Source: Saprospiraceae bacterium
GTDB lineage: Bacteria; Bacteroidota; Bacteroidia; Chitinophagales; Saprospiraceae
DNA length: 64,000 nucleotides
Reading direction: 5' to 3'
NCBI GenBank assembly: GCA_026982695.1
Contig: JALSGS010000021.1
Span: forward strand, 124,001 to 188,000
Shown here: positions 19,956-47,544 of the stretch, in pieces
How the letters are laid out: every line of letters starts with the position of its first letter
How positions within the stretch are numbered: position 1 is the first letter of the stretch
Made by a program: the position numbers and the translations under genes
The notes under the pieces: generated by a model
The model's input: the letters and a program-made list of their open reading frames with translations, nothing else
Told to the model about the DNA's origin: nothing
Databases searched by the model: none

Positions 19956-19963
19956 TACATTTG
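19956..19963 (+). promoter_or_regulatory. -7 box for the alpha-2-macroglobulin gene
   Basis: TACATTTG, an exact TAnnTTTG match. Transcription would start near 19970, which rules out the TTG at 19961 as start codon and supports the ATG at 19991. Confidence 0.45.
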
Positions 19964-19990
19964 ATACAACATACCCAAAAACACCAGCCC

Positions 19991-22900
19991 ATGGCACGTA
20001 TTTTCTTTGGTTTTACTTTGGCAATTTTCCTTCTGTGGGGGCTAGCCAGCTTTCAATCAAAACCTATGCTTACTGACTACGATAAAGCCTGGCATCACAT
20101 CGACAGCCTCATTCGGTACGGCCATTTGCGCACTGCCTATAAAGAGGTGAGACAAATCGAACAACGGGCATGGGAAAGCCAGCACTTGCCCCACTGGGTC
20201 AAAGCTATCAAATACCGCACAAAGCTCGAGGTAAAGCTCCACGACGACGAGCACCGCACTGCACTACGTAGCTATTACGCAGCTGTGGCCCAAGCCCCTC
20301 CTATAGCCCGTGCTGTCTTGCACACGATGCTAGCCAACCACTTAGCCTCATTCCTGCAATATCGAGCGTGGGAGTTGGCCCAACGCAGCCACAACCCCAA
20401 TGTCGATTCGCTCGGTATTCATACTTGGACGCTTCCCTACCTCGTGGAAAAAATTGATCAGCTTCTGAATGCCGCCCTTACCATACCCCAACTCGCCCAA
20501 GCAGCTACTGCTGAATGGCTACCTGTATGCACAGGGCCAAAAGAAACCATCCAGCTGCGTCCTACCTTGTTGGACATTGTGGCAGCACGCAGCACAGCCA
20601 TCTGGCGCCAACTTGAAAACTACGTGCCCCATCCGCCCGAGCCCTTCGAGTTGAAAGGTGATGCACTGTTCGACGATATCCCTCAATTTGTGGATCTTGC
20701 GCTTTCTGAGGCCTGGCAGCCCACGCCGCTGCATCGGGCCACTATTGCTTACCAGCAGTGGTTGCGCCATCGCCTCACTGATTCCAACTTTGAAGCCCTG
20801 CTCGACGCCGATTTGCAGCGCCTGGAATTCATGTACCTCTTTGCACAGGTCTCCCAAAAAGATTCGCTATATCTGGCAGCACTCACACGGTGGGAAAAGC
20901 GCTGCCTCCAGCGCAGGCCCATAGCTACCGTCTGGGCTGCCCAAGCCCGCTATCACTTCACACAGGGACAGGCCCAGCAGCAAGCGCCCACGCCAGATCC
21001 GTGGCAAACAGCAGTGCGCATTTGCCGAAAGGCACAAAACACACATCCCGACACTTGGGGGGCAGAGGTATGTGCAGGTATACTGGCACAAATCGAAGCC
21101 CCTGCGCTGCAAGCCGAAATGGACCAAGTGTGGATTCCCGATATGCTTGCACTGGTGCGCCTCGAATGGCGCAATATCAAGGCCGTGCACGCACACATCA
21201 TTCGCTTCGACGAAGACAGAAGCAAACAATGGCATGAGCTAAAGCGACACCTACACCAGCAAGAACAGCGCGCTATCGAGTGGTTGAAGCAGCTGCCCAC
21301 TGTATATCGCGACAGTTGGGAGCTACCAGGCTACGCCGACTGGCGCCAACACACTACTGAGTTGCCTATGCCTGCTTTGCCTTCCGGCAAATACGTGCTG
21401 CTACTCGAAGCCGAGCACGCCTACGGCCAACAGCATGCCGTATATCTCGAGCCATTCCAAGTATCGGCTATCGCGTGGGTCAACTGGCGCCACCCGCAAG
21501 AGCCCGATTTTCTGTACTTACTGCACCGGGATCAGGGCTATCCGCTCTTTGATGCACGCGTCGAGCTGCTCGCCCGCAATTGGCAAACAGACGGCTGGAG
21601 CCCTCCCAAACTCGTCGCAACCCTCAACCCCGATAAATACGGACAAGTACAGCTGCCCCAATTGAGCTCTTACAATAGTCGCTATCTACTTCGCTTCATC
21701 TGGCGAACCGACACACTCGAACATTCGTACGACTGGTCGCTACAGGAATTGAGCACGCGACAAAAAGACAGTACGAAGCAAGTCGCACTGATCCTGTTAG
21801 ATCGCCCCATATATCGGCCTGGGCAAGTGGTGCATTACAAGGTGATTTTGTACCAAATGGACAAGGTAAAGCGACCTACCCCCATCCCCCATCAAAATGT
21901 AGAGGTCGCACTGCGGGATGCCAACTGGAAAGAGCAAAGCACCCACTCGCATACGACCAATACATTCGGTTCAGCAGCTGGACAGTTCACCTTACCCGAG
22001 GGAAAGCTCACCGGTTCATGGTCGCTACACGTCCGTCCTGGCAACAGCTCAGTGCATTTCCGCGTAGAAGACTACAAACGGCCGCGCTTCGAGGTGAAGC
22101 TCGCCCCCCCTAAACAAGCCATCAGATTAGGCGATGTAGTACATGTACAAGGCTCCGCACGTGCATACGGCGACTACCCCATCAGTAATGCCCAAGTGCG
22201 GTGGCAGATCGAACGCACGCCCGACTACCGAGCGCTGTCGTGGATGGCACGCCGATGGCTGCCCCAGCCCAAAAGCGAACTGGTAGCACAAGGCCGCACC
22301 CATACCGACGCCAATGGCCAGTTTGAGTGGTGGTTTGAGGCAATCCCGCCGCTACATACCAACCCACAAGCCACATACCGCTATCGCATCACGGCTACCG
22401 TTACTGACGGCACTGGTGAGAGCCATCGCGCTACACTGAGTCTGCATTTAGGTGCACGTGCACTACACATGGAGTTGCAGGCCCCTGAAAAAATATTAGC
22501 GGCACAGTGGGACACCGTCGGCATCACCCTGCGCAACCAAGCTGACCAACCGCTGCGTGCTCGCGTAGTTGCCCGCCTCCATCAATTGAAATTGCCACCC
22601 ACCACTTGGCTACCCCGCCCTTGGTCACCTCCCGATCGGCCGGTATTGGATTCAGCAGCCTTTCGGCAAATGTTTCCCCAATGGCCTTGGCAACACGAAA
22701 ATGAGCCACATACCTGGCCCATTGCCAGAACGCATTGGGAAATAGAAACTACTGGCTCAGATTTGCGCCTACCCGTACACCGTGGCAACAGCAGCTTGCC
22801 ACCAGGCGTATATCGGCTCGAAGTGCACAGCACCGACCCCTTCGGTCAGCCTGTGAAGCGCTCGACACACGTCTGGGTGCTCGCACCTGACACTCCTAGC

Positions 22901-25900
22901 CCACTACCCGACCCGCTGCTTATACCTCAAGAAAAAATACAGGTAGCGGCTGGCCAGACTGCCCATCTGCAAGTAGCCACCTCACTGTCCGACCGCCCTG
23001 CCCTAGTCATTTTGGAGCAAGGCGATCGGCTCATATCCAAAGAATGGGTCACCATCGACAAATGGGCGCGACACAGCTACTCCACAACTACCAATAACCG
23101 GGGCGGCCTGCAATGGACCGTCCTCACCTTGCTGCACAACCGATTTTACCTGGCTCGCCAATACGTTGCTATCCCTTGGGCCGACAAACAGTTAAAAATT
23201 CGCTATGGTCAGTTTCGCGATAAGTTGCAACCAGGGCAACCGGCCGAGTGGATCCTCCGCATAGAGGGTGCCGACGGCCAGCCCGCTCATGCTGAAATGG
23301 TCGCCACCTTGTACGATGCCTCGCTCGAGGCCTTCGCTTCACATCGGTGGCCCGACCAGCTGTGGCCCACCTATGGCGGTGCCATTGTCCCTGAGTGGGG
23401 CACTACCAATCAGCCTCAATACATCGACCCCTTGTTGCGCTTCGAAGCGCCTATCCGCTCCATACCTTCATCACGAACCTATCTCGATTTAATGTCTTTG
23501 GACCTCCTGCCTGTAATGAGAGACGAAATGATGCTGTCTATCAGATATCGCAAAGCCGCCCCCATTGTACCCGACTCTTACGCCAAGAAAAGCGCCCCGT
23601 TGCAAAAGGTAGTGGAAGCCTCTCCATCAGCCCGCGAAGAGAGCCCCCCCCCGACTCCACCCAGTACTTCTGCCGATCAGGCAGCGGTCGTCGGTCCGGC
23701 CCTACGCACACAGTTAGACGAACTGGTCTTCTTTAAACCTCAACTCACTACCGATGCTCAAGGACGAGTGACCCTTCACTTTCGCATGAAAGAAGCCATG
23801 ACGAAATGGCGATTTCGCGTTTTTGCACATACCCAGGCACTAGCTACCGCCTATAGCGAACGCGAAGTGATCACAAGCAAAGAGCTGTTCATCGTGCCTC
23901 ATCCTCCGCGTTTTTTGCGCGAAGGCGATCGCATCGAGTTTACGGCCAAGGTGGTCAATCGAAGTGACAAAGTACGGCACGTCAATGCTGCACTGCAATT
24001 GGTCAATGGGGTGAGTGGCCATCCCGTATACAAATGGTTGGACAACCCGCAGTTTAATGTAGAAGTAGAAGTACCTGCACAAGGATCTCGCGATGTGTCG
24101 TGGTGGTTCGAGGTACCTGCTGTCGAAGAAGTGCCCTTTATCGAATACACGGTAGAGGTCAGTTCGGGCCCATTGCTCGACGCCGAGCGTGCGGCACTTC
24201 CAGTGCTACCCAACCGCATGTTGGTTACTGAAACACGAGCTATCTCGATCAAGGGGGGCCAGACTCGCCAGCTTCAGATCGATAAGCTCCGACATCCACC
24301 CACGCACAGCCTCAAGCCCGTAGCATTGACGCTGGAGTTCACGGCCAATCCTGCCTGGCTGGCGATCAAATCACTGCCCTATTTGATGGAATACCCGCAT
24401 GAGTGCAGCGAACAGCTCTTCAGCCGCTTTTATGCCAATGCGCTGGCTGCAGCCCTTGCAAATAGTCAGCCACGCATCCGCGAAGTATTTGCCCAATGGC
24501 AAAAAAATGGCGAAGAGGCACTTTCTAGCCCGCTCAGCCAAAACGAGACGCTCAAAAATGCACTGTTGGAAGAAACGCCATGGGTGTTAGCGGCTGAGTC
24601 AGAAACGGCACAGCGCCAACGCCTGGCACTACTGTTCGACCTTCACAAGATGGCTCAAGCACGTGCACACACCCTCCAGCAGTTGTGCGAAGCACAGCAT
24701 GCCGATGGCGGCTGGCCGTGGTTCAAAGGTGGCTACAGCAGTTGGTTCATCACCCAGTACATTGTAGAAGGGTTCGGGCATTTGCGCAAGCTGGAAGTGC
24801 TGGATCCCGAAGCGGAAGAAGCACTTCAAGAGGCATTACGCACTGCACAACACTTTCTCCAAAGCCAACTCCTTGCCTATTACCACAAGCTCATGGATCA
24901 GCCGTCCAAAGCAGGTGCACAACAGTTCCTAGCCCATCACCTCACGCCTCTGGTAATACACCACCTGTATACCCACTCCTTCTGGGCCGACCAATGGCCG
25001 GAATCGGCAGCCTATGACTCGGCATATGCCTATTTTCTAGAGTTAGCGCACATGCAGTGGCACGCGCAGTCTCCCTATCTGCAGGGCATGATCGCACTGG
25101 TCTTGTATCGCAACGGCCAAAAGTCCAGCGCGCGTACTATACTGCAAAGTTTGCGCGAACGCGCCATACGACACGAGGAAATGGGCATGTACTGGAAACA
25201 CACTGCTGGCTGGCAATGGCATCAGCATCCCATTGAGACGCACAGCCTCCTACTGGAAGCCTTTGCCGAAATAGATCCAAACCCCGATGAAATAGCTGCT
25301 ATGAAGACCTGGCTGCTCCAGCAAAAACGCACACAGGCATGGCCGACCACCAAGGCCACTGTCGAAGCTATCTATGCCCTTCTAGCACACGGCGATAACT
25401 GGCTTATGGAAATCGAGCCTTTAGAGGTATCGGTAGGGGACCCACAAGCACTGGAGTACGCCTCGTGGAACGAGCAGCTGCGCAGTGCACAAGCTGAAGG
25501 CGAAGCCGGCACTGGCACCTTCCAGGTACAATTCGCGGGAGAGTGGCTCGATCCCGCATTAGGACAAGTACAGATCACTAACCCCAATACGCAGTTAGCT
25601 TGGGGTGCCACCTATTTTCAATACTATGAGCAGCTCGACCGCATCGAAGCGCATAGTGATTCGTCTTTGCGGCTCACGCGGCAGTTTTTCCAAAAAGAAC
25701 GCACCGCGATGGGCCACAAGCTGGTGCCACTTAGAAAAGGCACTGTACTTCAGCCAGGAGATGAGGTCGTGTCGCGCATCGTCTTGCACAGCAGCCGTGC
25801 TATGGATTACGTACACCTTAAAGACATGCGCGCCAGTGGCTTGGAGCCCATCCAAGTACTTAGCGGTTACTACTGGCAAAATGGCTTGAGCTACTACCAG

Positions 25901-26083
25901 AGCACACGCGACTTAGCTACGCATTTTTTCATCGAACATTTGCCAAAAGGCACTTTCGTGCTTGAATACACCTTGCGCGCCGCACATCGCGGCACATTCC
26001 AAACAGGTATTAGTAGTATCCAGTGCATGTATGCTCCCGAATTTTCTAGCCACAGCCAGGGTGATATCTTAATAGTGAAATAA
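19991..26083 (+). CDS. Alpha-2-macroglobulin family protein with intact thioester
   Basis: 2030 residues from the ATG at 19991. The N-terminus (MARIFFGFTLAIFLLWGLASF) is a signal peptide or anchor. A helical, tetratricopeptide-like N-terminal half (to about 480) is followed by macroglobulin domains, including an MG2-like segment (YRPGQVVHYKVILYQMDK). A proline-rich, bait-like stretch precedes the A2M domain (FKPQLTTDAQGRVTLHFR..WRFRVFAHT), and a thioester domain carries ECSEQ with Cys at about 1472, matching the CxEQ thioester consensus. Bacterial A2Ms are thought to trap attacking proteases in the periplasm. The usual partner gene for penicillin-binding protein 1C is not adjacent. Four copies or near-copies of the dispersed word lie within it. 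Confidence 0.92.
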   Translation: MARIFFGFTLAIFLLWGLASFQSKPMLTDYDKAWHHIDSLIRYGHLRTAYKEVRQIEQRAWESQHLPHWVKAIKYRTKLEVKLHDDEHRTALRSYYAAVAQAPPIARAVLHTMLANHLASFLQYRAWELAQRSHNPNVDSLGIHTWTLPYLVEKIDQLLNAALTIPQLAQAATAEWLPVCTGPKETIQLRPTLLDIVAARSTAIWRQLENYVPHPPEPFELKGDALFDDIPQFVDLALSEAWQPTPLHRATIAYQQWLRHRLTDSNFEALLDADLQRLEFMYLFAQVSQKDSLYLAALTRWEKRCLQRRPIATVWAAQARYHFTQGQAQQQAPTPDPWQTAVRICRKAQNTHPDTWGAEVCAGILAQIEAPALQAEMDQVWIPDMLALVRLEWRNIKAVHAHIIRFDEDRSKQWHELKRHLHQQEQRAIEWLKQLPTVYRDSWELPGYADWRQHTTELPMPALPSGKYVLLLEAEHAYGQQHAVYLEPFQVSAIAWVNWRHPQEPDFLYLLHRDQGYPLFDARVELLARNWQTDGWSPPKLVATLNPDKYGQVQLPQLSSYNSRYLLRFIWRTDTLEHSYDWSLQELSTRQKDSTKQVALILLDRPIYRPGQVVHYKVILYQMDKVKRPTPIPHQNVEVALRDANWKEQSTHSHTTNTFGSAAGQFTLPEGKLTGSWSLHVRPGNSSVHFRVEDYKRPRFEVKLAPPKQAIRLGDVVHVQGSARAYGDYPISNAQVRWQIERTPDYRALSWMARRWLPQPKSELVAQGRTHTDANGQFEWWFEAIPPLHTNPQATYRYRITATVTDGTGESHRATLSLHLGARALHMELQAPEKILAAQWDTVGITLRNQADQPLRARVVARLHQLKLPPTTWLPRPWSPPDRPVLDSAAFRQMFPQWPWQHENEPHTWPIARTHWEIETTGSDLRLPVHRGNSSLPPGVYRLEVHSTDPFGQPVKRSTHVWVLAPDTPSPLPDPLLIPQEKIQVAAGQTAHLQVATSLSDRPALVILEQGDRLISKEWVTIDKWARHSYSTTTNNRGGLQWTVLTLLHNRFYLARQYVAIPWADKQLKIRYGQFRDKLQPGQPAEWILRIEGADGQPAHAEMVATLYDASLEAFASHRWPDQLWPTYGGAIVPEWGTTNQPQYIDPLLRFEAPIRSIPSSRTYLDLMSLDLLPVMRDEMMLSIRYRKAAPIVPDSYAKKSAPLQKVVEASPSAREESPPPTPPSTSADQAAVVGPALRTQLDELVFFKPQLTTDAQGRVTLHFRMKEAMTKWRFRVFAHTQALATAYSEREVITSKELFIVPHPPRFLREGDRIEFTAKVVNRSDKVRHVNAALQLVNGVSGHPVYKWLDNPQFNVEVEVPAQGSRDVSWWFEVPAVEEVPFIEYTVEVSSGPLLDAERAALPVLPNRMLVTETRAISIKGGQTRQLQIDKLRHPPTHSLKPVALTLEFTANPAWLAIKSLPYLMEYPHECSEQLFSRFYANALAAALANSQPRIREVFAQWQKNGEEALSSPLSQNETLKNALLEETPWVLAAESETAQRQRLALLFDLHKMAQARAHTLQQLCEAQHADGGWPWFKGGYSSWFITQYIVEGFGHLRKLEVLDPEAEEALQEALRTAQHFLQSQLLAYYHKLMDQPSKAGAQQFLAHHLTPLVIHHLYTHSFWADQWPESAAYDSAYAYFLELAHMQWHAQSPYLQGMIALVLYRNGQKSSARTILQSLRERAIRHEEMGMYWKHTAGWQWHQHPIETHSLLLEAFAEIDPNPDEIAAMKTWLLQQKRTQAWPTTKATVEAIYALLAHGDNWLMEIEPLEVSVGDPQALEYASWNEQLRSAQAEGEAGTGTFQVQFAGEWLDPALGQVQITNPNTQLAWGATYFQYYEQLDRIEAHSDSSLRLTRQFFQKERTAMGHKLVPLRKGTVLQPGDEVVSRIVLHSSRAMDYVHLKDMRASGLEPIQVLSGYYWQNGLSYYQSTRDLATHFFIEHLPKGTFVLEYTLRAAHRGTFQTGISSIQCMYAPEFSSHSQGDILIVK
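21021..21033 (+). repeat. Copy of 13-bp dispersed word TTTGCCGAAAGGC
   Basis: Exact forward copy, preceded by CA (15-bp form). It encodes (I)CRKA in the alpha-2-macroglobulin gene, a different frame from other copies. Confidence 0.7.
21379..21391 (-). repeat. One-mismatch copy of the dispersed word
   Basis: Plus strand GCCTTCCGGCAAA, one base from the 13-mer. It keeps the inverted-repeat symmetry and lies in the alpha-2-macroglobulin gene. Confidence 0.45.
22658..22670 (-). repeat. Copy of 13-bp dispersed word TTTGCCGAAAGGC
   Basis: Plus strand GCCTTTCGGCAAA followed by TG (15-bp form). It encodes AFRQM in the alpha-2-macroglobulin gene. Confidence 0.7.
25939..25951 (+). repeat. One-mismatch copy of the dispersed word
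   Basis: TTTGCCAAAAGGC, preceded by CA. It encodes LPKG near the C-terminus of the alpha-2-macroglobulin. Confidence 0.4.
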
Positions 26084-26214: not shown

Positions 26215-26246
26215 TTGGAAAATTGAATTTGACCTTTTTACCTTTG
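26215..26246 (+). promoter_or_regulatory. Promoter of the trp operon
   Basis: TTG at 26215-26217, a 21-nt spacer, and TACCTTTG at 26239-26246 (exact TAnnTTTG). Transcription would begin near 26253, giving about 15 nt before the leader-peptide ATG at 26268. Confidence 0.68.
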
Positions 26247-26267
26247 GGCACGTCAACTATACGAAAC

Positions 26268-26339
26268 ATGAACTTCACTTTCGTACATACGAATAACTGG
26301 TGGTGGCCCCGTCCTTCTCCGACTTGCCGGGTGAGGTGA
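26268..26339 (+). CDS. trpL: trp operon leader peptide with three consecutive Trp codons
   Basis: A 23-codon frame, MNFTFVHTNNWWWPRPSPTC followed by RVR and TGA. Three adjacent TGG codons at 26298-26306 are very unlikely by chance in such a short frame placed between a promoter and a terminator upstream of trpE. As in classical attenuation, a ribosome lacking charged tRNA-Trp would stall here. It would cover 26285-26296, which otherwise pairs with 26347-26358, and would leave 26323-26332 free to pair with 26383-26392. With ample Trp the ribosome reaches the stop codon and covers 26323-26332, so the terminator can form. Confidence 0.85.
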   Translation: MNFTFVHTNNWWWPRPSPTCRVR

Positions 26340-26399
26340 GGCGCCATTGTTCGTATGTGTTAAGGCGGCTTGTCAGGTTCCAACCCGGCAAGCCGCCTT
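26285..26399 (+). promoter_or_regulatory. trp attenuator: competing RNA helices
   Basis: Three helices can be read directly. Helix A: 26285-26296 (just before the Trp codons) with 26347-26358, 12 pairs including one G-U. Antiterminator candidate: CTTGCCGGGT (26323-26332) with ACCCGGCAAG (26383-26392), 10 perfect pairs. Terminator: 26362-26372 with 26389-26399, 11 perfect pairs. The antiterminator takes 4 bases of the terminator's 3' arm plus its loop, so the two compete only partly; a 7-bp terminator remnant could in principle persist. Confidence 0.72.
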
Positions 26400-26418
26400 T
26401 CTTTTTGTCTTTTTTAAA
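26362..26418 (+). terminator. Attenuator terminator of the trp operon
   Basis: AAGGCGGCTTG pairs perfectly with CAAGCCGCCTT around a 16-nt loop, followed by TTTCTTTTTGTCTTTTTT. It lies immediately before trpE (ATG 26430) and after the leader peptide, so it must be read through for operon expression. Confidence 0.88.
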
Positions 26419-26429
26419 AAAGCAAAAGC

Positions 26430-27842
26430 ATGGACAGCCCTGCTACCACTCGCATTCGCCTACACACTGCCTATCGGCGTCACTTAGCCGACACGCTCAC
26501 CCCCGTAACGGCGTACTTGCGCCTGCGCGACTACTACGATAGCCCCGTACTGCTGGAAAGCAATGATTTTGGCCGCGAAGGCGCCAGCTTCAGCTACATT
26601 GGCTTAGCGCCTTTGGCACGCATACAAGTACAGGCATTACAAATGACCATCCAAACACCTGTAGGCAAAACGACCACTGACGTATATGACTTGTCTACAC
26701 AATTTCAGGACTTTATTGCGCAGTTTGAGGTGGATCTTCCCTCATTTGAAGGGGCCATTAACGGTTTGTTTGGCCACACCACCTTTGATGCAGTGCAGTA
26801 CTTCGATACGATCCGCTTTGACGCGCGCAAACGGCAGCTCGACGTGCCCGCTCTGCACTACTGCCTCTACCGATACGTACTGGCCTTCAATCACCGAAAG
26901 CACGAGCTCTACGTACTCGAGAATTTGCCGGAAGGCGAAATCAGCCGGCTCGACGAGCTGGAGCGCCGCCTATTTCGCCCTGTATTTGCCACTTACCCCT
27001 TTCAGCTAAAAGGCACCGAAGAGAGTACAATGAGTGATGAAGACTTTCTCGAGCTGGTGCGCCTTGGGCAATACCACTGTCAGCGTGGCGATGTCTTCCA
27101 AATCGTCTTCAGCCGCCGCTACATACATGCCTTTGAAGGCGACGAGTTTCAGGTGTATCGCGCACTGCGGTCCATCAACCCTTCTCCCTACCTGTTCTAC
27201 TTCGACTACGGCAGCTACCGCGTTTTTGGCTCTAGCCCAGAATCGCAAATGATTATCCAAAACGGCAAAGCCACCGTCAATCCGATTGCAGGCACTTATC
27301 GCCGCGCCAATGAGCTAGCAGAAGACGCGCGCAGGGCAGCAGCACTGAGCCAGGATCCCAAGGAAAATGCCGAACACATTATGCTAGTGGATCTAGCACG
27401 CAACGATTTGGGGCGCCACTGCACTCAAGTAAAGGTCGAACAATTGCGCGAAGTGCACTACTACAGCCACGTCATGCACTTAGTCAGCAAGGTGAGTGGC
27501 CAAGTATCAGACCACACGCCTTCTATTCGCGTATTTGGCGACACCTTTCCCGCTGGTACGCTCTCGGGGGCTCCAAAGTACCGCGCATTATCACTTATCG
27601 ATCAATACGAACCACACAATCGAAGTTTTTACGGCGGTGCCATTGGCTACATCGGCCTTAATGGCGACATGAATCAGGCCATCGTCATTCGGTCCTTTCT
27701 CAGTCAGCATCACCATTTGTATTATCAGGCTGGTGCTGGCATCGTCATCGACAGTGTACCAGAAAAGGAATTACAGGAAGTACACAATAAGTTGGGCGCA
27801 CTGACTACTGCGCTCAAACGCGCCGAACATATTGACCATTAA
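26430..27842 (+). CDS. trpE: Anthranilate synthase component I
   Basis: 470 residues, full length. With TrpG it converts chorismate and glutamine to anthranilate, the first committed step to tryptophan. The N-terminal domain has the feedback-site motif VLLESNDFG (Trp binding near LLES). The chorismate-binding domain has INPSPYLFYFDYG, FGSSPESQMI, NPIAGTYRRA, VDLARNDLGRHC, GTLSGAPKYRAL and FYGGAIGYIGLNGDMNQAIVIRS. It is the first structural gene after the attenuator, with an arsC-like gene 23 nt downstream. A one-mismatch copy of the dispersed word lies at 26924. Confidence 0.95.
   Translation: MDSPATTRIRLHTAYRRHLADTLTPVTAYLRLRDYYDSPVLLESNDFGREGASFSYIGLAPLARIQVQALQMTIQTPVGKTTTDVYDLSTQFQDFIAQFEVDLPSFEGAINGLFGHTTFDAVQYFDTIRFDARKRQLDVPALHYCLYRYVLAFNHRKHELYVLENLPEGEISRLDELERRLFRPVFATYPFQLKGTEESTMSDEDFLELVRLGQYHCQRGDVFQIVFSRRYIHAFEGDEFQVYRALRSINPSPYLFYFDYGSYRVFGSSPESQMIIQNGKATVNPIAGTYRRANELAEDARRAAALSQDPKENAEHIMLVDLARNDLGRHCTQVKVEQLREVHYYSHVMHLVSKVSGQVSDHTPSIRVFGDTFPAGTLSGAPKYRALSLIDQYEPHNRSFYGGAIGYIGLNGDMNQAIVIRSFLSQHHHLYYQAGAGIVIDSVPEKELQEVHNKLGALTTALKRAEHIDH
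26924..26936 (+). repeat. One-mismatch copy of the dispersed word
   Basis: TTTGCCGGAAGGC, one base from the 13-mer and the reverse complement of the variant at 21379. It encodes LPEG in trpE. Confidence 0.4.
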
Positions 27843-27865: not shown

Positions 27866-28210
27866 ATGAAGATCTATCACAACCCTCGCTGCCGCAAAAG
27901 TCGAGAGACCTTGGAGTTGCTGCGCACCCATGGCATAGAACCCCAAATCGTGGAATACCTCAAAACGCCACCTACTAAAGAAGAGCTACGCGCCCTTTTG
28001 CGCAAACTCGGCATGAAACCCGTCGAGCTGGTACGCAAAAACGAAGCCATCTACAAAGAACTATTCAAGGGCAAGGAGCTCAGCGATGAGGAATGGCTCG
28101 ACGTATTGGTACAACACCCCAAGCTCATCGAACGACCCATCGTCGTAGCAGGCGCTAAAGCCGTCATTGGTCGGCCACCTGAAAATGCACTGCAATTGCT
28201 CGAAGACTAA
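27866..28210 (+). CDS. ArsC/Spx-family thioredoxin-fold protein inside the trp operon
   Basis: 114 residues, the usual length of glutaredoxin-linked arsenate reductases. The N-terminus MKIYHNPRCRKSRETLELL carries the catalytic-type Cys, and EYLKTPPTKEELRALLRKLG, the Arg in KLIERPIVV and AVIGRPPE match ArsC. It may reduce arsenate or, as with YffB-like relatives, do something else with thiols. It sits between trpE and trpG with gaps of 23 and 16 nt, so it must be transcribed with the trp genes. No other arsenic gene is nearby, which makes an arsenic-resistance role less certain. Confidence 0.85.
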   Translation: MKIYHNPRCRKSRETLELLRTHGIEPQIVEYLKTPPTKEELRALLRKLGMKPVELVRKNEAIYKELFKGKELSDEEWLDVLVQHPKLIERPIVVAGAKAVIGRPPENALQLLED

Positions 28211-28226
28211 CGCAAAAAACACTGCC

Positions 28227-28832
28227 ATGAAATTGCTCGTACTCGACAATTACGACTCCTTTACCTACAATCTAGTACAGTACTTCGAAGAGCTACTAGC
28301 GCAGCCTGTGGAGGTCTATCGCAACGACGCCATCAGCATCGGAGAAGTAGCCGCCTACGATGCCGTCGTATTGTCGCCAGGGCCAGGTCTTCCAGCGGAG
28401 GCGGGGATTATGCTGCAACTCATTCGCGCCTTAGCTGGCCAAGTGCCCATTTTGGGCATTTGCCTAGGACATCAGGCCATTGCAGAAGCATTTGGCGGCA
28501 ACCTGCGCAACCTCGACGAAGTGTATCACGGCAAGGAAACCGATATTTTCATCACTGCACCTGATGATCCACTCTTTGCACAAGTACCCAGTCCCTTCCG
28601 AGCGGGGCGTTACCACTCTTGGGTGGTTGATGAGGCCACGCTGCCCGACATACTCGAAGTCACCGCTGTAGATGCACAGGGACGCATCATGGCTTTGCGT
28701 CATCGCCATTACGAGCTATGTGGTATGCAATTTCACCCAGAGAGCATCATGACGACTCACGGCAAGCAACTACTGGCCAACTGGCTACAGGCAATTGGCT
28801 GCGCCAAGATCACCCATTTCGCTACTGTTTAA
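28227..28832 (+). CDS. trpG: Anthranilate synthase component II (glutamine amidotransferase)
   Basis: 201 residues from the ATG at 28227 (MKLLVLDNYDSFTYNLVQYF). It provides ammonia from glutamine to TrpE. The oxyanion motif LSPGPGLP, the nucleophile Cys79 in LGICLGHQAIAE and the HxE pair in MQFHPESIMT are present. It is a stand-alone protein, not fused to TrpD as in enterobacteria. The TrpD gene starts 10 nt later. Confidence 0.95.
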   Translation: MKLLVLDNYDSFTYNLVQYFEELLAQPVEVYRNDAISIGEVAAYDAVVLSPGPGLPAEAGIMLQLIRALAGQVPILGICLGHQAIAEAFGGNLRNLDEVYHGKETDIFITAPDDPLFAQVPSPFRAGRYHSWVVDEATLPDILEVTAVDAQGRIMALRHRHYELCGMQFHPESIMTTHGKQLLANWLQAIGCAKITHFATV

Positions 28833-28842
28833 TTTGTCAAAA

Positions 28843-29829
28843 ATGAAAGCATTACTCGAACGGCTCTTCGCACATGAAAGCCTGAGCCGCGACGAAGCTC
28901 GTCAGGCATTGCTACGCATTACCGAAGGGCAAGTGCCCGATGCACAAATTGCCGCTTTTGCCACAGTCTTTCGCATGCGGCCCCTACAGCGCCAGGAGCT
29001 CGAAGGCTTTCGCGACGCATTGCTCGAGCGCTGCATCCGCATCGACTTGGAAGGGCGTCCTACCATCGATATTGTGGGCACAGGTGGCGATGGCAAAAAC
29101 ACTTTCAATATATCTACTTGCTCGGCCTTTGTCGTAGCGGGTGCCGGTTATGCAGTGAGCAAGCACGGCAACTATGGCGCCAGCTCGGTAAGTGGATCGA
29201 GCAATGTACTCCAACATCTGGGCTATACCTTCACGCAAGATGCCGACCTACTGCGCCAACAACTCGACCAAGCGGGCATTTGCTTTTTTCACGCACCGTT
29301 GTTCCATCCAGCGCTCAAGCATGTAGCCTCCGTGCGCAAAGCATTAGGTGTCAAGACCTTTTTCAACATCCTAGGCCCAATGGTCAATCCTGCCCAGCCT
29401 ACCTATCAGTTGTTGGGTACTTTCTCATTGGAGCTAAGCCGCATGTATCAGTATGTGTTGCAGGGCCAGCGAAAGAAGTTCACCGTAGTACATGCTCTGG
29501 ACGGCTATGACGAGGTATCGCTCACAGGGCCGGTACAGGTGCGCACTCACTTTAGCGAGCAGCGGCTGTCGCCCAAAGAGATGGGCCTGCCTCAATACCG
29601 CACTGAGGAGCTATCGGGAGGGCATAGCGTAGCCGATGCTGCCCGCATCTTCGTGCAGATACTGGAAGGACGCAGCACACCGGCCCAACGCGACGTCGTC
29701 TTGGCCAATGCTGCATGGGCTATCCACACCATCAAGTCCGAGCAATTGCTGGCCGACTGCCTGGCAGAAGCACGCGAAAGCCTCCATTCGGGGCGCGCAC
29801 TACAAGTATTGAAAAAAGTAACTGCTTAG
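28843..29829 (+). CDS. trpD: Anthranilate phosphoribosyltransferase
   Basis: 328 residues from the ATG at 28843 (MKALLERLFAHESLSRDEA). An upstream in-frame start at 28795 would overlap trpG by 38 nt. It transfers phosphoribose from PRPP to anthranilate. The glycine-rich PRPP site is DIVGTGGDGKNTFNIST, followed by VSKHGNYGASSVSGS and the FNILGPMVNPAQP motif with the conserved Asn/Pro. Fourth structural gene of the operon. Confidence 0.95.
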   Translation: MKALLERLFAHESLSRDEARQALLRITEGQVPDAQIAAFATVFRMRPLQRQELEGFRDALLERCIRIDLEGRPTIDIVGTGGDGKNTFNISTCSAFVVAGAGYAVSKHGNYGASSVSGSSNVLQHLGYTFTQDADLLRQQLDQAGICFFHAPLFHPALKHVASVRKALGVKTFFNILGPMVNPAQPTYQLLGTFSLELSRMYQYVLQGQRKKFTVVHALDGYDEVSLTGPVQVRTHFSEQRLSPKEMGLPQYRTEELSGGHSVADAARIFVQILEGRSTPAQRDVVLANAAWAIHTIKSEQLLADCLAEARESLHSGRALQVLKKVTA

Positions 29830-29853
29830 CAAGCACATAAAACATGCTTACTC

Positions 29854-30675
29854 ATGGACATGCTCAATCAGATCGTCGCACACAAGAGGCGAGAAGTCGC
29901 CCACCGCAAGGAACGCTACCCTGTCAAATTGCTGGAAGAACAACTGCATTTTCGTGCGCCCACACTTAGCATGGTGCACTACTTGCGCCGCCCCGACAAG
30001 AGCGGCATTATTGCCGAGTTCAAGCGGCGCTCGCCCTCTAAAGGCGACATCAACCCTTGGGCCGACGTAGAAACAATTACCATCGGCTATATGCAGGCAG
30101 GTGCCAGCGCCCTGTCGGTACTCACTGATGAGCACTTTTTTGGCGGAAGCCTACAGGACCTCAGGCAGGCCAGAGTGCTGAATCTGTGCCCCATTTTGCG
30201 CAAGGATTTTGTCATCGATAGCTATCAAATCGTGGAGGCACGGGCTTGGGGAGCCGACGTGGTGTTGCTCATCGCTGAGTGTTTGGACAAAAAGCAAGTA
30301 AAAGAGTTGGCGGCTTTCGCCAAATCATTGGGCATGGAAGTACTCATGGAGTTGCACAGTGCTGAGCAGCTCGACAAACTCACTTCCGACATCGATATGG
30401 TAGGCGTCAACAACCGAAACTTGAAAGACTTTAGCGTGCAGATAGAGACTTCTCTAGCACTGGCCGAGCTCATTCCCGATCACATGGTGAAGGTATCGGA
30501 GAGTGGCCTGTCGCGTGCTGAAGTCATCGTCCAGCTCAAAGCAGCCGGCTATGAAGGCTTTCTCATCGGTGAATACCTTATGAGCAGTGCTGATCCTGCA
30601 GCTCGCTGCCGCAACCTCATTGCCGACATCCGACAGTTGAGTCTTTCCGAACACCCTCAAAGTCTCACCTCATGA
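29854..30675 (+). CDS. trpC: Indole-3-glycerol phosphate synthase
   Basis: 273 residues, a (beta/alpha)8 barrel. It closes the indole ring from CdRP. Conserved residues are in GIIAEFKRRSPSKGDIN (substrate Lys and Glu), LSVLTDEHFFGGS, LRKDFVIDSYQI (catalytic Lys), MEVLMELHSAEQ, VGVNNRNLKDF and VSESGLS. It is separate from TrpF, unlike the fused E. coli protein. Met at 29860 is an alternative start. The trpF start overlaps its stop by 4 nt. Confidence 0.95.
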   Translation: MDMLNQIVAHKRREVAHRKERYPVKLLEEQLHFRAPTLSMVHYLRRPDKSGIIAEFKRRSPSKGDINPWADVETITIGYMQAGASALSVLTDEHFFGGSLQDLRQARVLNLCPILRKDFVIDSYQIVEARAWGADVVLLIAECLDKKQVKELAAFAKSLGMEVLMELHSAEQLDKLTSDIDMVGVNNRNLKDFSVQIETSLALAELIPDHMVKVSESGLSRAEVIVQLKAAGYEGFLIGEYLMSSADPAARCRNLIADIRQLSLSEHPQSLTS

Positions 30676-31325
30676 AACAGCACCATATCGTCAAGGTTTG
30701 TGGCTTGCGCGAACCCGACAACGTGCGTGCCATCAGCCAACTGCCCGTCGATTGGTTAGGCGTCATCTTTCATCCCGATTCGCCTCGCCATGTACTGCCC
30801 GATGAGCAGCTGGAAAGTGCATTGCGTGAAGCAGCCCAACTAAAGGTAGGCGTATTTGTGCGGCAGTCTCCCTCAGAAGTCGCAGCCACCGCCCAGTACT
30901 GGCAACTCGACATGGTTCAGCTGCACGGTGACCAGTCGGTTTCCTTTTGCCAAGCACTCAAGGCACTCATGCCCGACCTACCGCTGATTAAAGTTTTTCG
31001 CATCGATGCGCATTTTGACTTTACCTCTGTGCTGCCCTTTGCACCCCTGTGCCGCTATGTGCTATTCGACACGCGAGCTACTCAGATGGGTGGCACGGGC
31101 AAGCGCTTCGACTGGTCGTTGCTCCAGCACTACCGCATGGGACCACCTTTTATCCTCAGTGGCGGCATTGGGCCAGAAGCAGTGGCAACGCTGGCACAGG
31201 TAATGGATCACCCACTTGCCATGGGCATTGATCTAAACAGTCGCTTCGAAGTGGCACCCGCCCGCAAGGATGTATCCTTACTCGACCACTTTTTGCAACA
31301 ACTCGGAAAAAAACAATACGCATGA
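30672..31325 (+). CDS. trpF: Phosphoribosylanthranilate isomerase
   Basis: 217 residues, a small barrel enzyme performing the Amadori rearrangement of PRA to CdRP. Family motifs are VKVCGLREPDNVRAI with the catalytic Cys, DWLGVIFHPDSPRHV, VGVFV, VQLHGDQS, LFDTRA..GGTGKRFDW with the catalytic Asp, FILSGGIGPEAV and GIDLNSRFE. It overlaps both neighbours by 4 nt (ATGA), so translation of trpC, trpF and trpBA is coupled. Confidence 0.94.
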   Translation: MKQHHIVKVCGLREPDNVRAISQLPVDWLGVIFHPDSPRHVLPDEQLESALREAAQLKVGVFVRQSPSEVAATAQYWQLDMVQLHGDQSVSFCQALKALMPDLPLIKVFRIDAHFDFTSVLPFAPLCRYVLFDTRATQMGGTGKRFDWSLLQHYRMGPPFILSGGIGPEAVATLAQVMDHPLAMGIDLNSRFEVAPARKDVSLLDHFLQQLGKKQYA

Positions 31326-33400
31326 ACCGCTACAACCATCCCGATGAGGCAGGTTATTACGGCACCTTTGGTGGCGCCTGGATCCCCGAGATGCTACATC
31401 GCAACGTGGAAGAGTTGCGCACGCACTATCAAGACATCATTGCCTCACCAGACTTTCAAGCCGATTTCCACCGGTTGCTGCGCGACTATGTGGGGCGCCC
31501 CACCCCCTTGTGGTTTGCCGAAAGGCTAAGTCAGCACTATGGCACGCGAATCTTTCTGAAAAGAGAAGACCTCAACCACACAGGTGCCCACAAGATCAAC
31601 AACACCATCGGGCAAATACTGCTGGCACAACGCCTGGGCAAAAAGCGCATCATCGCAGAGACAGGTGCTGGCCAGCACGGCGTGGCTACTGCTACCGTCT
31701 GTGCGCTGATGGATATGGAGTGCATAGTATATATGGGTGCCACCGACATGAAACGCCAAGCACCCAACGTGGCACGCATGAAAATGCTGGGCGCTGAGGT
31801 GCGGGCTGTGCACAGCGGTAGCTGCACGCTGAAAGACGCCACCAATGAAGCCATTCGCGACTGGATCGCACATCCCGACGACACACACTACATCATTGGA
31901 TCGGTGGTAGGACCTCATCCCTATCCCGATATGGTGGCCCGTTTTCAGTCGGTCATCAGCAAGGAGCTGCGCACGCAGCTCAAAGCACAGACGGGTCGCG
32001 CCCTACCTGATGCCATCATTGCTTGCGTAGGTGGTGGCAGCAATGCTGCAGGGGCCTTTTATCACTTCCTCGAAGCTCCATCTGTGCGGCTTATTGCTGC
32101 TGAGGCTGCTGGTCTGGGTGTCGACTCGGGCAAGTCGGCAGCGACAAGCGTGCTGGGCAGCGAGGGCATCATTCACGGCAGCCGCACGCTGCTGATGCAA
32201 ACTGCCGATGGGCAAATTGTCGAGCCGCACAGCATTTCGGCAGGACTCGACTACCCGGGCATCGGCCCTTTGCACGCTCACCTGATTCGCACCGGACGCG
32301 CCGAAGTGGCACCCATCACGGATACACAGGCCCTACAAGCTGGCTACTTGCTAACACAGCTCGAAGGCATCATTCCGGCTCTGGAGTCCGCACACGCCCT
32401 GGCCGTACTCGAACAGTGCCACTTTGAGCCCGATGAAGTAGTCGTAGTCAACTTGTCGGGACGGGGCGACAAAGACTTAGACACTTATGTACAGCATATG
32501 GAAACAGCTAAGCCCCATACCACAGCTGCAAATGGCCAACACAAGGCGACGCCTACACGATTAATATGCCCATCCGCAAGCCAGCAACCAACACCAAGCC
32601 GGCAAAGCGACCGGACAACTGGCTTGCTCAACATCTATTTCACGGCTGGTTATCCCAAGCTAAACGATACCGTACCGCTGATTGAGGCGCTCACTGAAGC
32701 AGGCGTAGACCTCATCGAGGTGGGCATGCCCTATAGCGATCCCTTAGCCGATGGACCGACGATACAGCACAGCTCTGCTGTGGCTTTACGCAATGGCATG
32801 ACACTCGACCTGCTATTTGAGCAGATAGCTACTGCACGCCTTCACACCGAGGTACCTCTTATCCTCATGGGATACTACAATCAGGTGATGCAATACGGTG
32901 AAGACCGCTTTTTGGAACGCTGCAAAGAAGTAGGAATCGACGGCTTGATTCTGCCCGACCTACCATTGCCTGAATACGAGCAATCGCTACAGCACAAGTT
33001 GACTGCGCTGGGTCTGGGCATCAGCTTGCTCATTACCCCACATACTAGCGAAGCGCGCATCCGAAAGATCGACGAGCTAACGCGCGGGTTTATCTATATG
33101 GTGAGCACAGCCGCCACGACGGGAGCGCGCAAGGGCATCAGCGCGGAGCAGGAAGCCTATTTTCAGCGCATTGCGGCCATGCAACTGCGCCACCCTTGCC
33201 TCATTGGCTTTGGCATTTCCGACAGTGCCTCCTTCGAAAAGGCGTGCTGCTATGCCGATGGTGCTATTATTGGCAGTGCCTTCATCAATGCACTGACAGA
33301 TGCTTCAGATGTAAAAGCAGCAGCACAGCGCTTCGTGCGCACCATACGACAAAACAAGGGCCCCGGAGCTGCCCATTTGCGTGCAAGCGCCTTCCTATAG
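31322..33400 (+). CDS. trpBA: Tryptophan synthase beta-alpha fusion
   Basis: 692 residues in one uninterrupted frame. Residues 1-391 are a complete TrpB: EMLHRNVEEL, the PLP lysine in NHTGAHKINNTIGQ (Lys91), ETGAGQHGVATAT, GGGSNAAGAFYHF and NLSGRGDKDLDTY. Residues 392-434 are a linker rich in Thr, Ser, Gln and Pro. Residues 435-692 are TrpA: LLNIYFTAGYP, the catalytic Glu in DLIEVGMPYSDPLADGP with the Asp of ADGP, LMGYYNQVMQYG, DGLILPDLPLPE and GFGISD. TrpB and TrpA normally form an alpha2-beta2 complex that channels indole. Fungal fusions have the order alpha-beta; here it is beta-alpha. The first helix of TrpA is replaced by linker. A copy of the dispersed word lies at 31514. Confidence 0.93.
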   Translation: MNRYNHPDEAGYYGTFGGAWIPEMLHRNVEELRTHYQDIIASPDFQADFHRLLRDYVGRPTPLWFAERLSQHYGTRIFLKREDLNHTGAHKINNTIGQILLAQRLGKKRIIAETGAGQHGVATATVCALMDMECIVYMGATDMKRQAPNVARMKMLGAEVRAVHSGSCTLKDATNEAIRDWIAHPDDTHYIIGSVVGPHPYPDMVARFQSVISKELRTQLKAQTGRALPDAIIACVGGGSNAAGAFYHFLEAPSVRLIAAEAAGLGVDSGKSAATSVLGSEGIIHGSRTLLMQTADGQIVEPHSISAGLDYPGIGPLHAHLIRTGRAEVAPITDTQALQAGYLLTQLEGIIPALESAHALAVLEQCHFEPDEVVVVNLSGRGDKDLDTYVQHMETAKPHTTAANGQHKATPTRLICPSASQQPTPSRQSDRTTGLLNIYFTAGYPKLNDTVPLIEALTEAGVDLIEVGMPYSDPLADGPTIQHSSAVALRNGMTLDLLFEQIATARLHTEVPLILMGYYNQVMQYGEDRFLERCKEVGIDGLILPDLPLPEYEQSLQHKLTALGLGISLLITPHTSEARIRKIDELTRGFIYMVSTAATTGARKGISAEQEAYFQRIAAMQLRHPCLIGFGISDSASFEKACCYADGAIIGSAFINALTDASDVKAAAQRFVRTIRQNKGPGAAHLRASAFL
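31514..31526 (+). repeat. Copy of 13-bp dispersed word TTTGCCGAAAGGC
   Basis: Exact forward copy within the TrpB part of trpBA, encoding FAERL. Confidence 0.7.
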
Positions 33401-33407
33401 GGCCGTA

Positions 33408-33420
33408 TTTGCCGAAAGGC
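33408..33420 (+). repeat. Intergenic copy of the dispersed word, extended palindrome
   Basis: Exact forward copy 7 nt after the trpBA stop. Here the right side continues AAA, so TTTGCC and GGCAAA pair as a 6-bp stem with a GAAA tetraloop. It is the only clearly intergenic exact copy in the window. Confidence 0.7.
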
Positions 33421-33432
33421 AAAAAACAGCTC

Positions 33433-33473
33433 AGCGGCGGCGTGCGCTCGTCTCAAGACGCGAGGTAGCCGCT
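33433..33473 (+). other. Structured spacer between trpBA and DAHP synthase
   Basis: AGCGGC (33433-33438) pairs with GCCGCT (33468-33473), and an inner stem CTCG/CGAG (33447-33450 with 33461-33464) sits inside. No T-tract follows. It could stabilise or process the operon mRNA, or modulate readthrough into the last gene. Confidence 0.4.
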
Positions 33474-33509
33474 TGATTTCACACAGATGCTTTCGCAAAA
33501 CAGCAACTT

Positions 33510-34532
33510 ATGGTCATTCAACTTACACCCTACATTACGCAAGAACAATTGCAAACTATTGAAGAGACCTTGCTTCAACATGGATGGAAGAGTATGCCCG
33601 TGCGCACCCAATACCAACAATACTTGGTGGGCATTGGCAAGAAAGACATTGACCTGCGGCACCTGGCGCAGCTACCAGGTATCGCCGATGTGTTTCGCGT
33701 GACGGACAGCTTCAAGTTGGTCAGCCGCAAGTGGCGCATCCAGGAAACCTGTATTGACTTGGGCGACGATGTGCGCATCGGTGCTGGCCACTTTGCCATC
33801 ATGGCAGGGCCGTGCTCTATCGAATCGGAACAGCAAGTAGCCGACACGCTGGCACATCTCAAAGCACATGGCGTGCGCATTATGCGCGGTGGCGTGTACA
33901 AACCACGCTCCTCACCTTACTCCTTTCGCGGCCTAGGTATTGAAGGACTCAAGATGTGGCATGCACAGGCACAAGCACATGGCATCAAGATCATCACAGA
34001 GGTCATGATGCCTGCCCAGATCGAAGCCATGTACCCATATGTAGATATTTTCCAAGTGGGTGCGCGCAATGCGCAAAACTTCAACTTGCTGGATGCCTTG
34101 GGCCAAGTGGATAAGCCCGTGTTGCTCAAGCGTGGCGTATCGGGCACCATAGAAGAGTTGCTCCAGTCAGCCGAATACATCTTTTCAGGAGGCAATGAAC
34201 GCATTTTGCTGTGTGAACGTGGCATACGCACTTATGAATCTGCCTATCGCAACTGCTTTGACATCAATGCCATAGCCATTCTCAAGGCGCGCACTCATCT
34301 ACCTGTCATTGCCGACCCTTCGCACGGTGTAGGCCTACGGGCCTACGTGCCACAAATAGCGCTGGCCGCAACCATAGCTGGTACCGATGGCGTTTTGGTC
34401 GAAGTACATCACTGCCCCGAGAAAGCGTACAGTGATGGGCAACAATCGCTGCACTTCAAAGAAGCTGCGTTGCTCTATGAGCAGCTGTCAGCTGTGCAAG
34501 CTTGCCGACAGCAGTTAGCGCGCATGACCTGA
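33510..34532 (+). CDS. aroF: 3-Deoxy-7-phosphoheptulonate synthase, type I-beta
   Basis: 340 residues. It makes DAHP from PEP and erythrose 4-phosphate, the first step of the shikimate pathway. An N-terminal ferredoxin-like regulatory domain (about 1-75) precedes the barrel, which has HFAIMAGPCSIES, MRGGVYKPRSSPYSFRGLG, ITEVMMPAQ, FQVGARNAQNF, VLLKRGVSGTIEE, LCERGIRTYE, VIADPSHGVG and VEVHHCPEKAYSDGQQ, with the metal-binding Cys/His/Glu/Asp set. It is 109 nt after trpBA on the same strand with no promoter visible in the gap, so it is probably the last gene of the trp operon, coupling chorismate supply to Trp demand. Confidence 0.93.
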   Translation: MVIQLTPYITQEQLQTIEETLLQHGWKSMPVRTQYQQYLVGIGKKDIDLRHLAQLPGIADVFRVTDSFKLVSRKWRIQETCIDLGDDVRIGAGHFAIMAGPCSIESEQQVADTLAHLKAHGVRIMRGGVYKPRSSPYSFRGLGIEGLKMWHAQAQAHGIKIITEVMMPAQIEAMYPYVDIFQVGARNAQNFNLLDALGQVDKPVLLKRGVSGTIEELLQSAEYIFSGGNERILLCERGIRTYESAYRNCFDINAIAILKARTHLPVIADPSHGVGLRAYVPQIALAATIAGTDGVLVEVHHCPEKAYSDGQQSLHFKEAALLYEQLSAVQACRQQLARMT

Positions 34533-47329: not shown

Positions 47330-47413
47330 GCCGAAGTGGCGGAACTGGTAGACGCGCTGGACTCAAAATCCAGTGTCCGCAAGGACGTGTGGGTTCGAAT
47401 CCCACCTTCGGTA
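47330..47413 (+). tRNA. tRNA-Leu(CAA)
   Basis: 84 nt. The acceptor GCCGAAG pairs with CTTCGGT (G-U at the first pair). The anticodon stem CTGGA/TCCAG encloses loop CTCAAAA with anticodon CAA (reads UUG). A long class II variable arm and the TTCGAAT T-loop are present. CCA is not encoded. Confidence 0.93.
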
Positions 47414-47446
47414 CTGCGTATTTTCCCCAAGTGAGCACTGCAACCC

Positions 47447-47530
47447 GCCGAAGTGGTGGAACTGGTAGACACGCACGTTTCAGGGGCGTGTGGCCGAAAG
47501 GCCGTGTGGGTTCGAATCCCACCTTCGGCA
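47447..47530 (+). tRNA. tRNA-Leu(CAG)
   Basis: 84 nt, acceptor GCCGAAG/CTTCGGC. The anticodon stem CACGT/GCGTG encloses TTCAGGG with anticodon CAG (reads CUG). The variable arm contains GGCCGAAAGGCC. It lies 33 nt after tRNA-Leu(CAA), is very similar in its arms, and is surely co-transcribed with it. Confidence 0.93.
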
Positions 47531-47544
47531 CTGTAAGCGCATGC

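Follow-up and report, generated by a model that had tools for sequence, protein, structure and literature searches.

A putative trp operon attenuator in Saprospiraceae with an antiterminator predicted to capture the loop and 3′ arm of the terminator

The 64,000-nucleotide stretch of Saprospiraceae DNA analysed here (the window) contains, before trpE, a leader that in our judgement is likely to be a ribosome-mediated transcription attenuator controlling the trp operon. The antiterminator would be formed by a strand near the end of the leader ORF (strand C) that pairs with the loop and 3′ arm of the terminator (strand D). As judged from the leader sequence and its modelled folds, this RNA switch probably turns on the tryptophan-making genes when tryptophan is short. 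Switches of this general type belong to textbook knowledge.

The trpE leader and its recurrence in relatives

On the forward strand of the window, a promoter-like site, a leader ORF, a terminator with a T-rich tract and trpE follow one another, as read directly from the sequence. The first-pass annotation had listed these parts in this order, and its coordinates were confirmed. The promoter-like site, TTG-N21-TACCTTTG (26215–26246; TTG at 26215–26217 and TACCTTTG at 26239–26246), is similar to the Bacteroidota promoter consensus, and transcription would presumably start from it. Among 76 leader sequences, the window included, TAnnTTTG was present between −140 and −20 relative to the first Trp codon in 38 and absent from the other 38; single-base shuffling would lead one to expect it in 5.15. 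The leader ORF (26268–26339; ATG at 26268, stop TGA at 26337–26339) encodes the 23-residue peptide MNFTFVHTNNWWWPRPSPTCRVR* and includes three consecutive Trp codons, TGG TGG TGG, at 26298–26306, on which the ribosome would stall. The terminator (26362–26399), described earlier as a perfect 11-bp hairpin with a T-rich tail, does pair over 11 bp (26362–26372 with 26389–26399), and its stem lengthens to 13 bp, one U.G included, between a 5′ arm at 26362–26374 and a 3′ arm at 26387–26399. The T-rich tract, TCTTTTTGTCTTTTTT (26400–26415), follows directly after the 3′ arm. The minimum free energy of the whole leader was −70.3 kcal/mol (z −5.5), and none of 200 shuffles was as stable.

Two further helices had been proposed, and both pair at the positions given for them. 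Strand A (26285–26296), which a stalled ribosome would cover, pairs with strand B (26347–26358) over 12 bp, one of them U.G, and the A:B hairpin encloses strand C. Strand C (26323–26332) lies just before the leader stop, is similar to the terminator 5′ arm, and forms 10 Watson-Crick pairs with strand D (26383–26392), which consists of the end of the terminator loop and the start of the 3′ arm. When C was shuffled, the window's helix with the loop and 3′ arm had p=0.007.

A TrpE-like match was found in 143 of 148 related genomes, paralogues counted, and 76 of 83 upstream regions (window and relatives) carried a Trp-run leader and a terminator before trpE. The Trp runs in the relatives were WW, WWW or WWWW, with one WRW. 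Seven regions were omitted: L031 and L083 were too short, L052 was without a WW leader, L023 and L041 had a WW leader further upstream than our 420-nt limit, and L049 and L056 were chosen by automatic selection (78 of 83) and then removed by hand as not credible. Across the 76 sequences, A:B had a mean energy of −6.03 kcal/mol, compared with −3.98 (sd 0.15) for species-swapped partners.

To look for an antiterminator, we paired the end of the leader ORF, without gaps, with the terminator 5′ arm and separately with the loop and 3′ arm, and kept the best helix in each case. Over 67 sequences of the family, pairing with the loop and 3′ arm averaged −8.21 kcal/mol for a sequence's own partner and −5.01 (sd 0.31) for species-swapped partners, and 0 of 200 swaps reached the former; for the 5′ arm, own and swapped values were both −3.43, and 103 of 200 swaps reached the own value. 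Both arms showed some signal in the nine sequences from other families of the order (8/200 and 2/200 swaps). Combined shuffle p values over 68 family sequences were 2e-25 for the loop and 3′ arm and 0.96 for the 5′ arm, figures that kinship keeps from being strict probabilities. Shuffles of individual sequences were modest for the loop and 3′ arm (17 of 68 at p≤0.02, 31 of 68 at 0.05) and weak for the whole terminator (25 of 76 at p≤0.05), and the best helix fell within the loop and 3′ arm in 51 of 76 sequences, a placement that shuffled strands already reached in 46%. Because these per-sequence tests are weak, we relied on the aggregate and on the species-swapped controls.

Compensatory changes were counted in an alignment of 19 sequences (A1). 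Its members were selected by eye, the criterion being an RVR-like end of the leader, and the congener of the window was included as well; this selection favours alignable C strands. In the C:D core, both sides had changed in nine cells, where shuffles gave 2.1 and one shuffle in 500 reached nine, and further pair types showed no excess (7 against 8.0). In the terminator stem, 99.6% of cells were paired and 10 were compensatory, against 1.2. RNAalifold predicted the terminator alone on this alignment, with C:D absent, and it was after this result that C:D was counted, as a named structure. The earlier expectation that Trp leader ORFs with covarying helices would lie upstream of trpE in related genomes is thus borne out by the 76 regions and by the compensatory changes in the alignment. 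The window's own C:D helix is shifted relative to the alignment, having gained CTTG/CAAG and lost two pairs at the opposite end. CTTG/CAAG is absent from most of the 19 sequences, and the positions of the outer four pairs of the window helix do not pair in 12 to 17 of them.

A covariance model (R1) built from 15 relatives, with the window and its congener left out, located the window leader at 26271–26408 (73.2 bits, E 2.7e-16). This was a single place in the window's genome, a second, minus-strand match being the same palindromic terminator. At E≤0.01 the model recognised 82 of the 100 family genomes searched, and many of the family genomes also had weaker matches elsewhere, some of which were the opposite strand of the same place. 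In genome G438 (contig C64), two matches on one strand, at 22520–22657 and 20091–20233, with 67.5 and 50 bits, are separated by about 2.4 kb and are perhaps two attenuators. In genome G116 (locus L046), the attenuator terminator is followed by another hairpin with a run of T, ahead of an N stretch.

Ribosome position and the choice between helices

We folded the leader with the nucleotides under the ribosome blocked, using assumed footprints. With the window RNA exposed to 26392, the probability of C:D was 0.97, 1.00 and 1.00 for a ribosome at each of the three Trp codons, and 0.00 without a ribosome or with one at the stop, where the terminator was already forming. The probability of A:B was 1.0 without a ribosome, 0 with a stalled one and 0.06 to 0.57 with one at the stop. 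The switching logic proposed earlier, in which stalling would free the antiterminator and reaching the stop would block it, is supported by these calculations. The same folding was applied to the 49 of the 67 family sequences whose helix reached −6 kcal/mol or better, with the RNAs truncated where D ends, a design that favours C:D. The median probability of C:D in these relatives was 1.00 when stalled, 0.24 without a ribosome and 0.00 at the stop; the stalled value exceeded that at the stop in 48 of 49 and that without a ribosome in 47 of 49. In 19 of the 49 relatives, C:D exceeded 0.5 without a ribosome, and therefore A:B is not an effective lock everywhere. Four sequences (L029, L037, L042 and L047) deviate from the general pattern. 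Once the complete 3′ arm of the window was exposed, the terminator was the stabler fold in every ribosome state, so C:D would need to act kinetically.

On this model, when charged tRNA-Trp is ample, the ribosome would reach the leader stop and cover C, the terminator would form and transcription would end before trpE. A shortage of charged tRNA-Trp would make the ribosome stall on the three Trp codons and cover A, thereby preventing the A:B hairpin and leaving C free. C could then pair with the emerging loop and the start of the 3′ arm before that arm is complete, and with C:D formed, transcription would run on into trpE. In an untranslated leader, A:B would enclose C and the terminator would form. 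The order of events would be decisive: C:D must form first, presumably with the loop as its toehold.

The same calculations bear on whether C:D is the antiterminator at all. The leader could be a trp attenuator in which C:D instead forms a pseudoknot with the lower stem, or in which readthrough arises through another helix or a nearby ribosome. In most relatives only about 3 bp of the terminator stem are shared with C:D, so that a pseudoknot with an intact lower stem is possible; the complete terminator beats C:D in the calculation, and the RNAalifold consensus is without it. Against this, the 5′ arm gives no competing signal in the window's family, and C:D is kept beyond the species-swapped controls at the very place occupied in the calculation by a ribosome on the stop codon, and we consider such a reading rather unlikely. 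We retain C:D as the probable antiterminator. That the leader is a plain upstream terminator beside a chance Trp-rich ORF, with no regulation, is scarcely credible, as the Trp-run leader, terminator and helices recur before trpE (76 of 83 regions, and 37 of 40 further ones described below) and both C:D and the terminator stem covary.

Known trp leaders and two antiterminator topologies

A trp leader RNA of Bacteroidota was catalogued in 2010 as Bacteroid-trp (Rfam RF01692; Weinberg et al., Table 1, PMC2864571), and Rfam describes it as a tryptophan peptide leader. It has been noted upstream of the Flavobacterium psychrophilum trp operon and compared there with E. coli attenuation (PMC6414381). 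The first-pass annotation had left open whether this architecture had been described in Bacteroidota; the catalogue entry answers this in part. The window leader would be an attenuator of a known kind, that of Bacteroid-trp, and its C:D antiterminator lies outside the catalogued model. The two share the leader start, UGGUGG and then the terminator start, as well as a long hairpin linking the stretch ahead of the Trp codons with the one that follows the stop. The RF01692 model stops at GGCUUGUC, inside the terminator 5′ arm, and is therefore without an antiterminator; the 3′ arm, like C:D, falls beyond its end.

RF01692 (cut-off 49 bits) gave no match in the window, its congener or the window's genome, even at E≤10. 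Among 90 family genomes, one exceeded the cut-off and 39 had a match at E≤1, and many of the matches in the family coincide with trpE leaders at full length, mostly with weak scores. Model R1, built from relatives, finds the window, and common descent of the window leader and RF01692 is likely, as far as sequence comparison goes. Across the phylum, 27 of 296 genomes exceeded the cut-off. The best-scoring 12 of 29 RF01692 loci (L085–L096) showed C:D in the loop and 3′ arm, and in 11 of them C runs exactly up to the leader stop; they are close relatives and therefore not 12 independent cases. Trp_leader, which has the accession RF00513 (PMC3766115), was absent among the Rfam matches around the leader at E≤10. 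Those that did appear up to E 10 were all below their cut-offs and belonged to unrelated families, and we took them as chance. A scan of the window at Rfam gathering cut-offs returned two tRNAs only. With T-box or other Rfam cis-elements thus found neither at cut-off in the window nor with a credible score at the leader (E≤10), control by a TRAP-like Trp-binding protein or a tRNA-binding T-box in place of the ribosome, known for trp genes of other bacteria (B. subtilis TRAP, PMC4027176), is most improbable, and it would explain neither the Trp codons nor the placement of A and C relative to them.

With E. coli trpL the window leader shares a Trp-codon leader peptide, a terminator before trpE, mutually exclusive pairings and ribosome position as the signal. 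In trpL, regions I to IV are distinguished, and the partner of region II is the terminator 5′ arm, region III (II:III/III:IV; PMC1183508). Our helix search, applied to trpL, returned CGGGC/GCCCG in the 5′ arm, in agreement with that scheme. In contrast, strand C of the window is part of the leader ORF, is enclosed by the A:B hairpin and has the loop and 3′ arm as its partner; where the E. coli antiterminator takes the 5′ arm, C imitates that arm and would capture the opposite terminator strand. The earlier coordinates for C:D were right, but this choice of the opposite strand had gone unremarked. The E. coli-type I-II-III-IV topology was not found, the 5′ arm giving no signal in the window (p=0.81) or in the 67 family sequences. 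Actinobacterial trp attenuators, which Seliverstov et al. (2005; PMC1262725) call classical, likewise have a leader with double or triple UGG, an antiterminator and a terminator, with conserved complementary triples gGCC-rGCy-GGCC; an antiterminator in the loop and 3′ arm, as in the window, goes unmentioned in the accessible portion of that paper. A literature search of incomplete coverage returned no earlier account of a ribosome-mediated attenuator with an antiterminator of this type; Lopatovskaya et al. (2010), cited in PMC4833913, is possibly relevant.

We extended the search to a phylum-wide set of 40 genomes, drawn from across the families among the 139 that had a match; the window's own family, Saprospiraceae, is f1. 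Leader and terminator were present in 37 of these 40 further trpE regions (L188 and L189 were without a leader, and L178 without a terminator). Antiterminators in the 5′ arm reached p≤0.02 in families f18 (1/4), f20 (2/5), f23 (2/5), f33 (1/1), f40 (2/2), and f43, f45 and f49 (1/1 each), and antiterminators in the loop and 3′ arm did so outside f1 in f18 (1/4), f20 (1/5), f25 (2/7), f28 (1/4) and f36 (2/3). The other regions reached p≤0.02 for neither arm, and these counts are a pattern, not a census. On balance we lean towards a second attenuator topology in Bacteroidota, in which a C-like strand mimics the 5′ arm and captures both the loop, where it would find a toehold, and the 3′ arm, and which the Bacteroid-trp model, having no antiterminator, does not represent. 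Since both topologies would then occur at the same gene within one phylum, lineages would have switched strand. The Rfam model of this RNA family stops short of the antiterminator; C:D would plausibly supply the switch that it lacks, and trp attenuation would extend to Bacteroidota that the RF01692 model misses. The proposal also raises a question of kinetics, namely whether a short loop-seeded helix can beat a longer and stabler terminator, and the presence of both topologies at the same gene within a single phylum would offer a natural comparison of attenuator evolution.

The presumed operon and its surroundings

The first gene under this control would be trpE (26430–27842, forward strand), which encodes anthranilate synthase component I (Pfam PF00425 and PF04715). 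The presumed remainder of the operon (27866–34532, forward strand) comprises an ArsC-like gene, trpG, trpD, trpC, trpF, a fused trpB-trpA and a DAHP synthase gene; gene order and strand suggest that trpE through DAHP synthase form one transcript. The ArsC-family gene (PF03960; 27866–28210) sits between trpE and trpG. The trpB and trpA genes form a single open frame of 692 aa (31322–33400; PF00291, then PF00290). A full-length trpB-trpA match without a stop was found in this genome only, of 60 searched; in the remaining genomes the match was in two pieces or had stops between. The fused frame is possibly an assembly error. Just upstream of the leader, a 2040-aa ORF (19961–26083) with MG2, A2M and bMG10 domains is, by its predicted domains, a bacterial alpha-2-macroglobulin-like protein. 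Further along the window, at 47330–47531, lies a tRNA-Leu pair, the two adjacent genes having the anticodons CAA and CAG.
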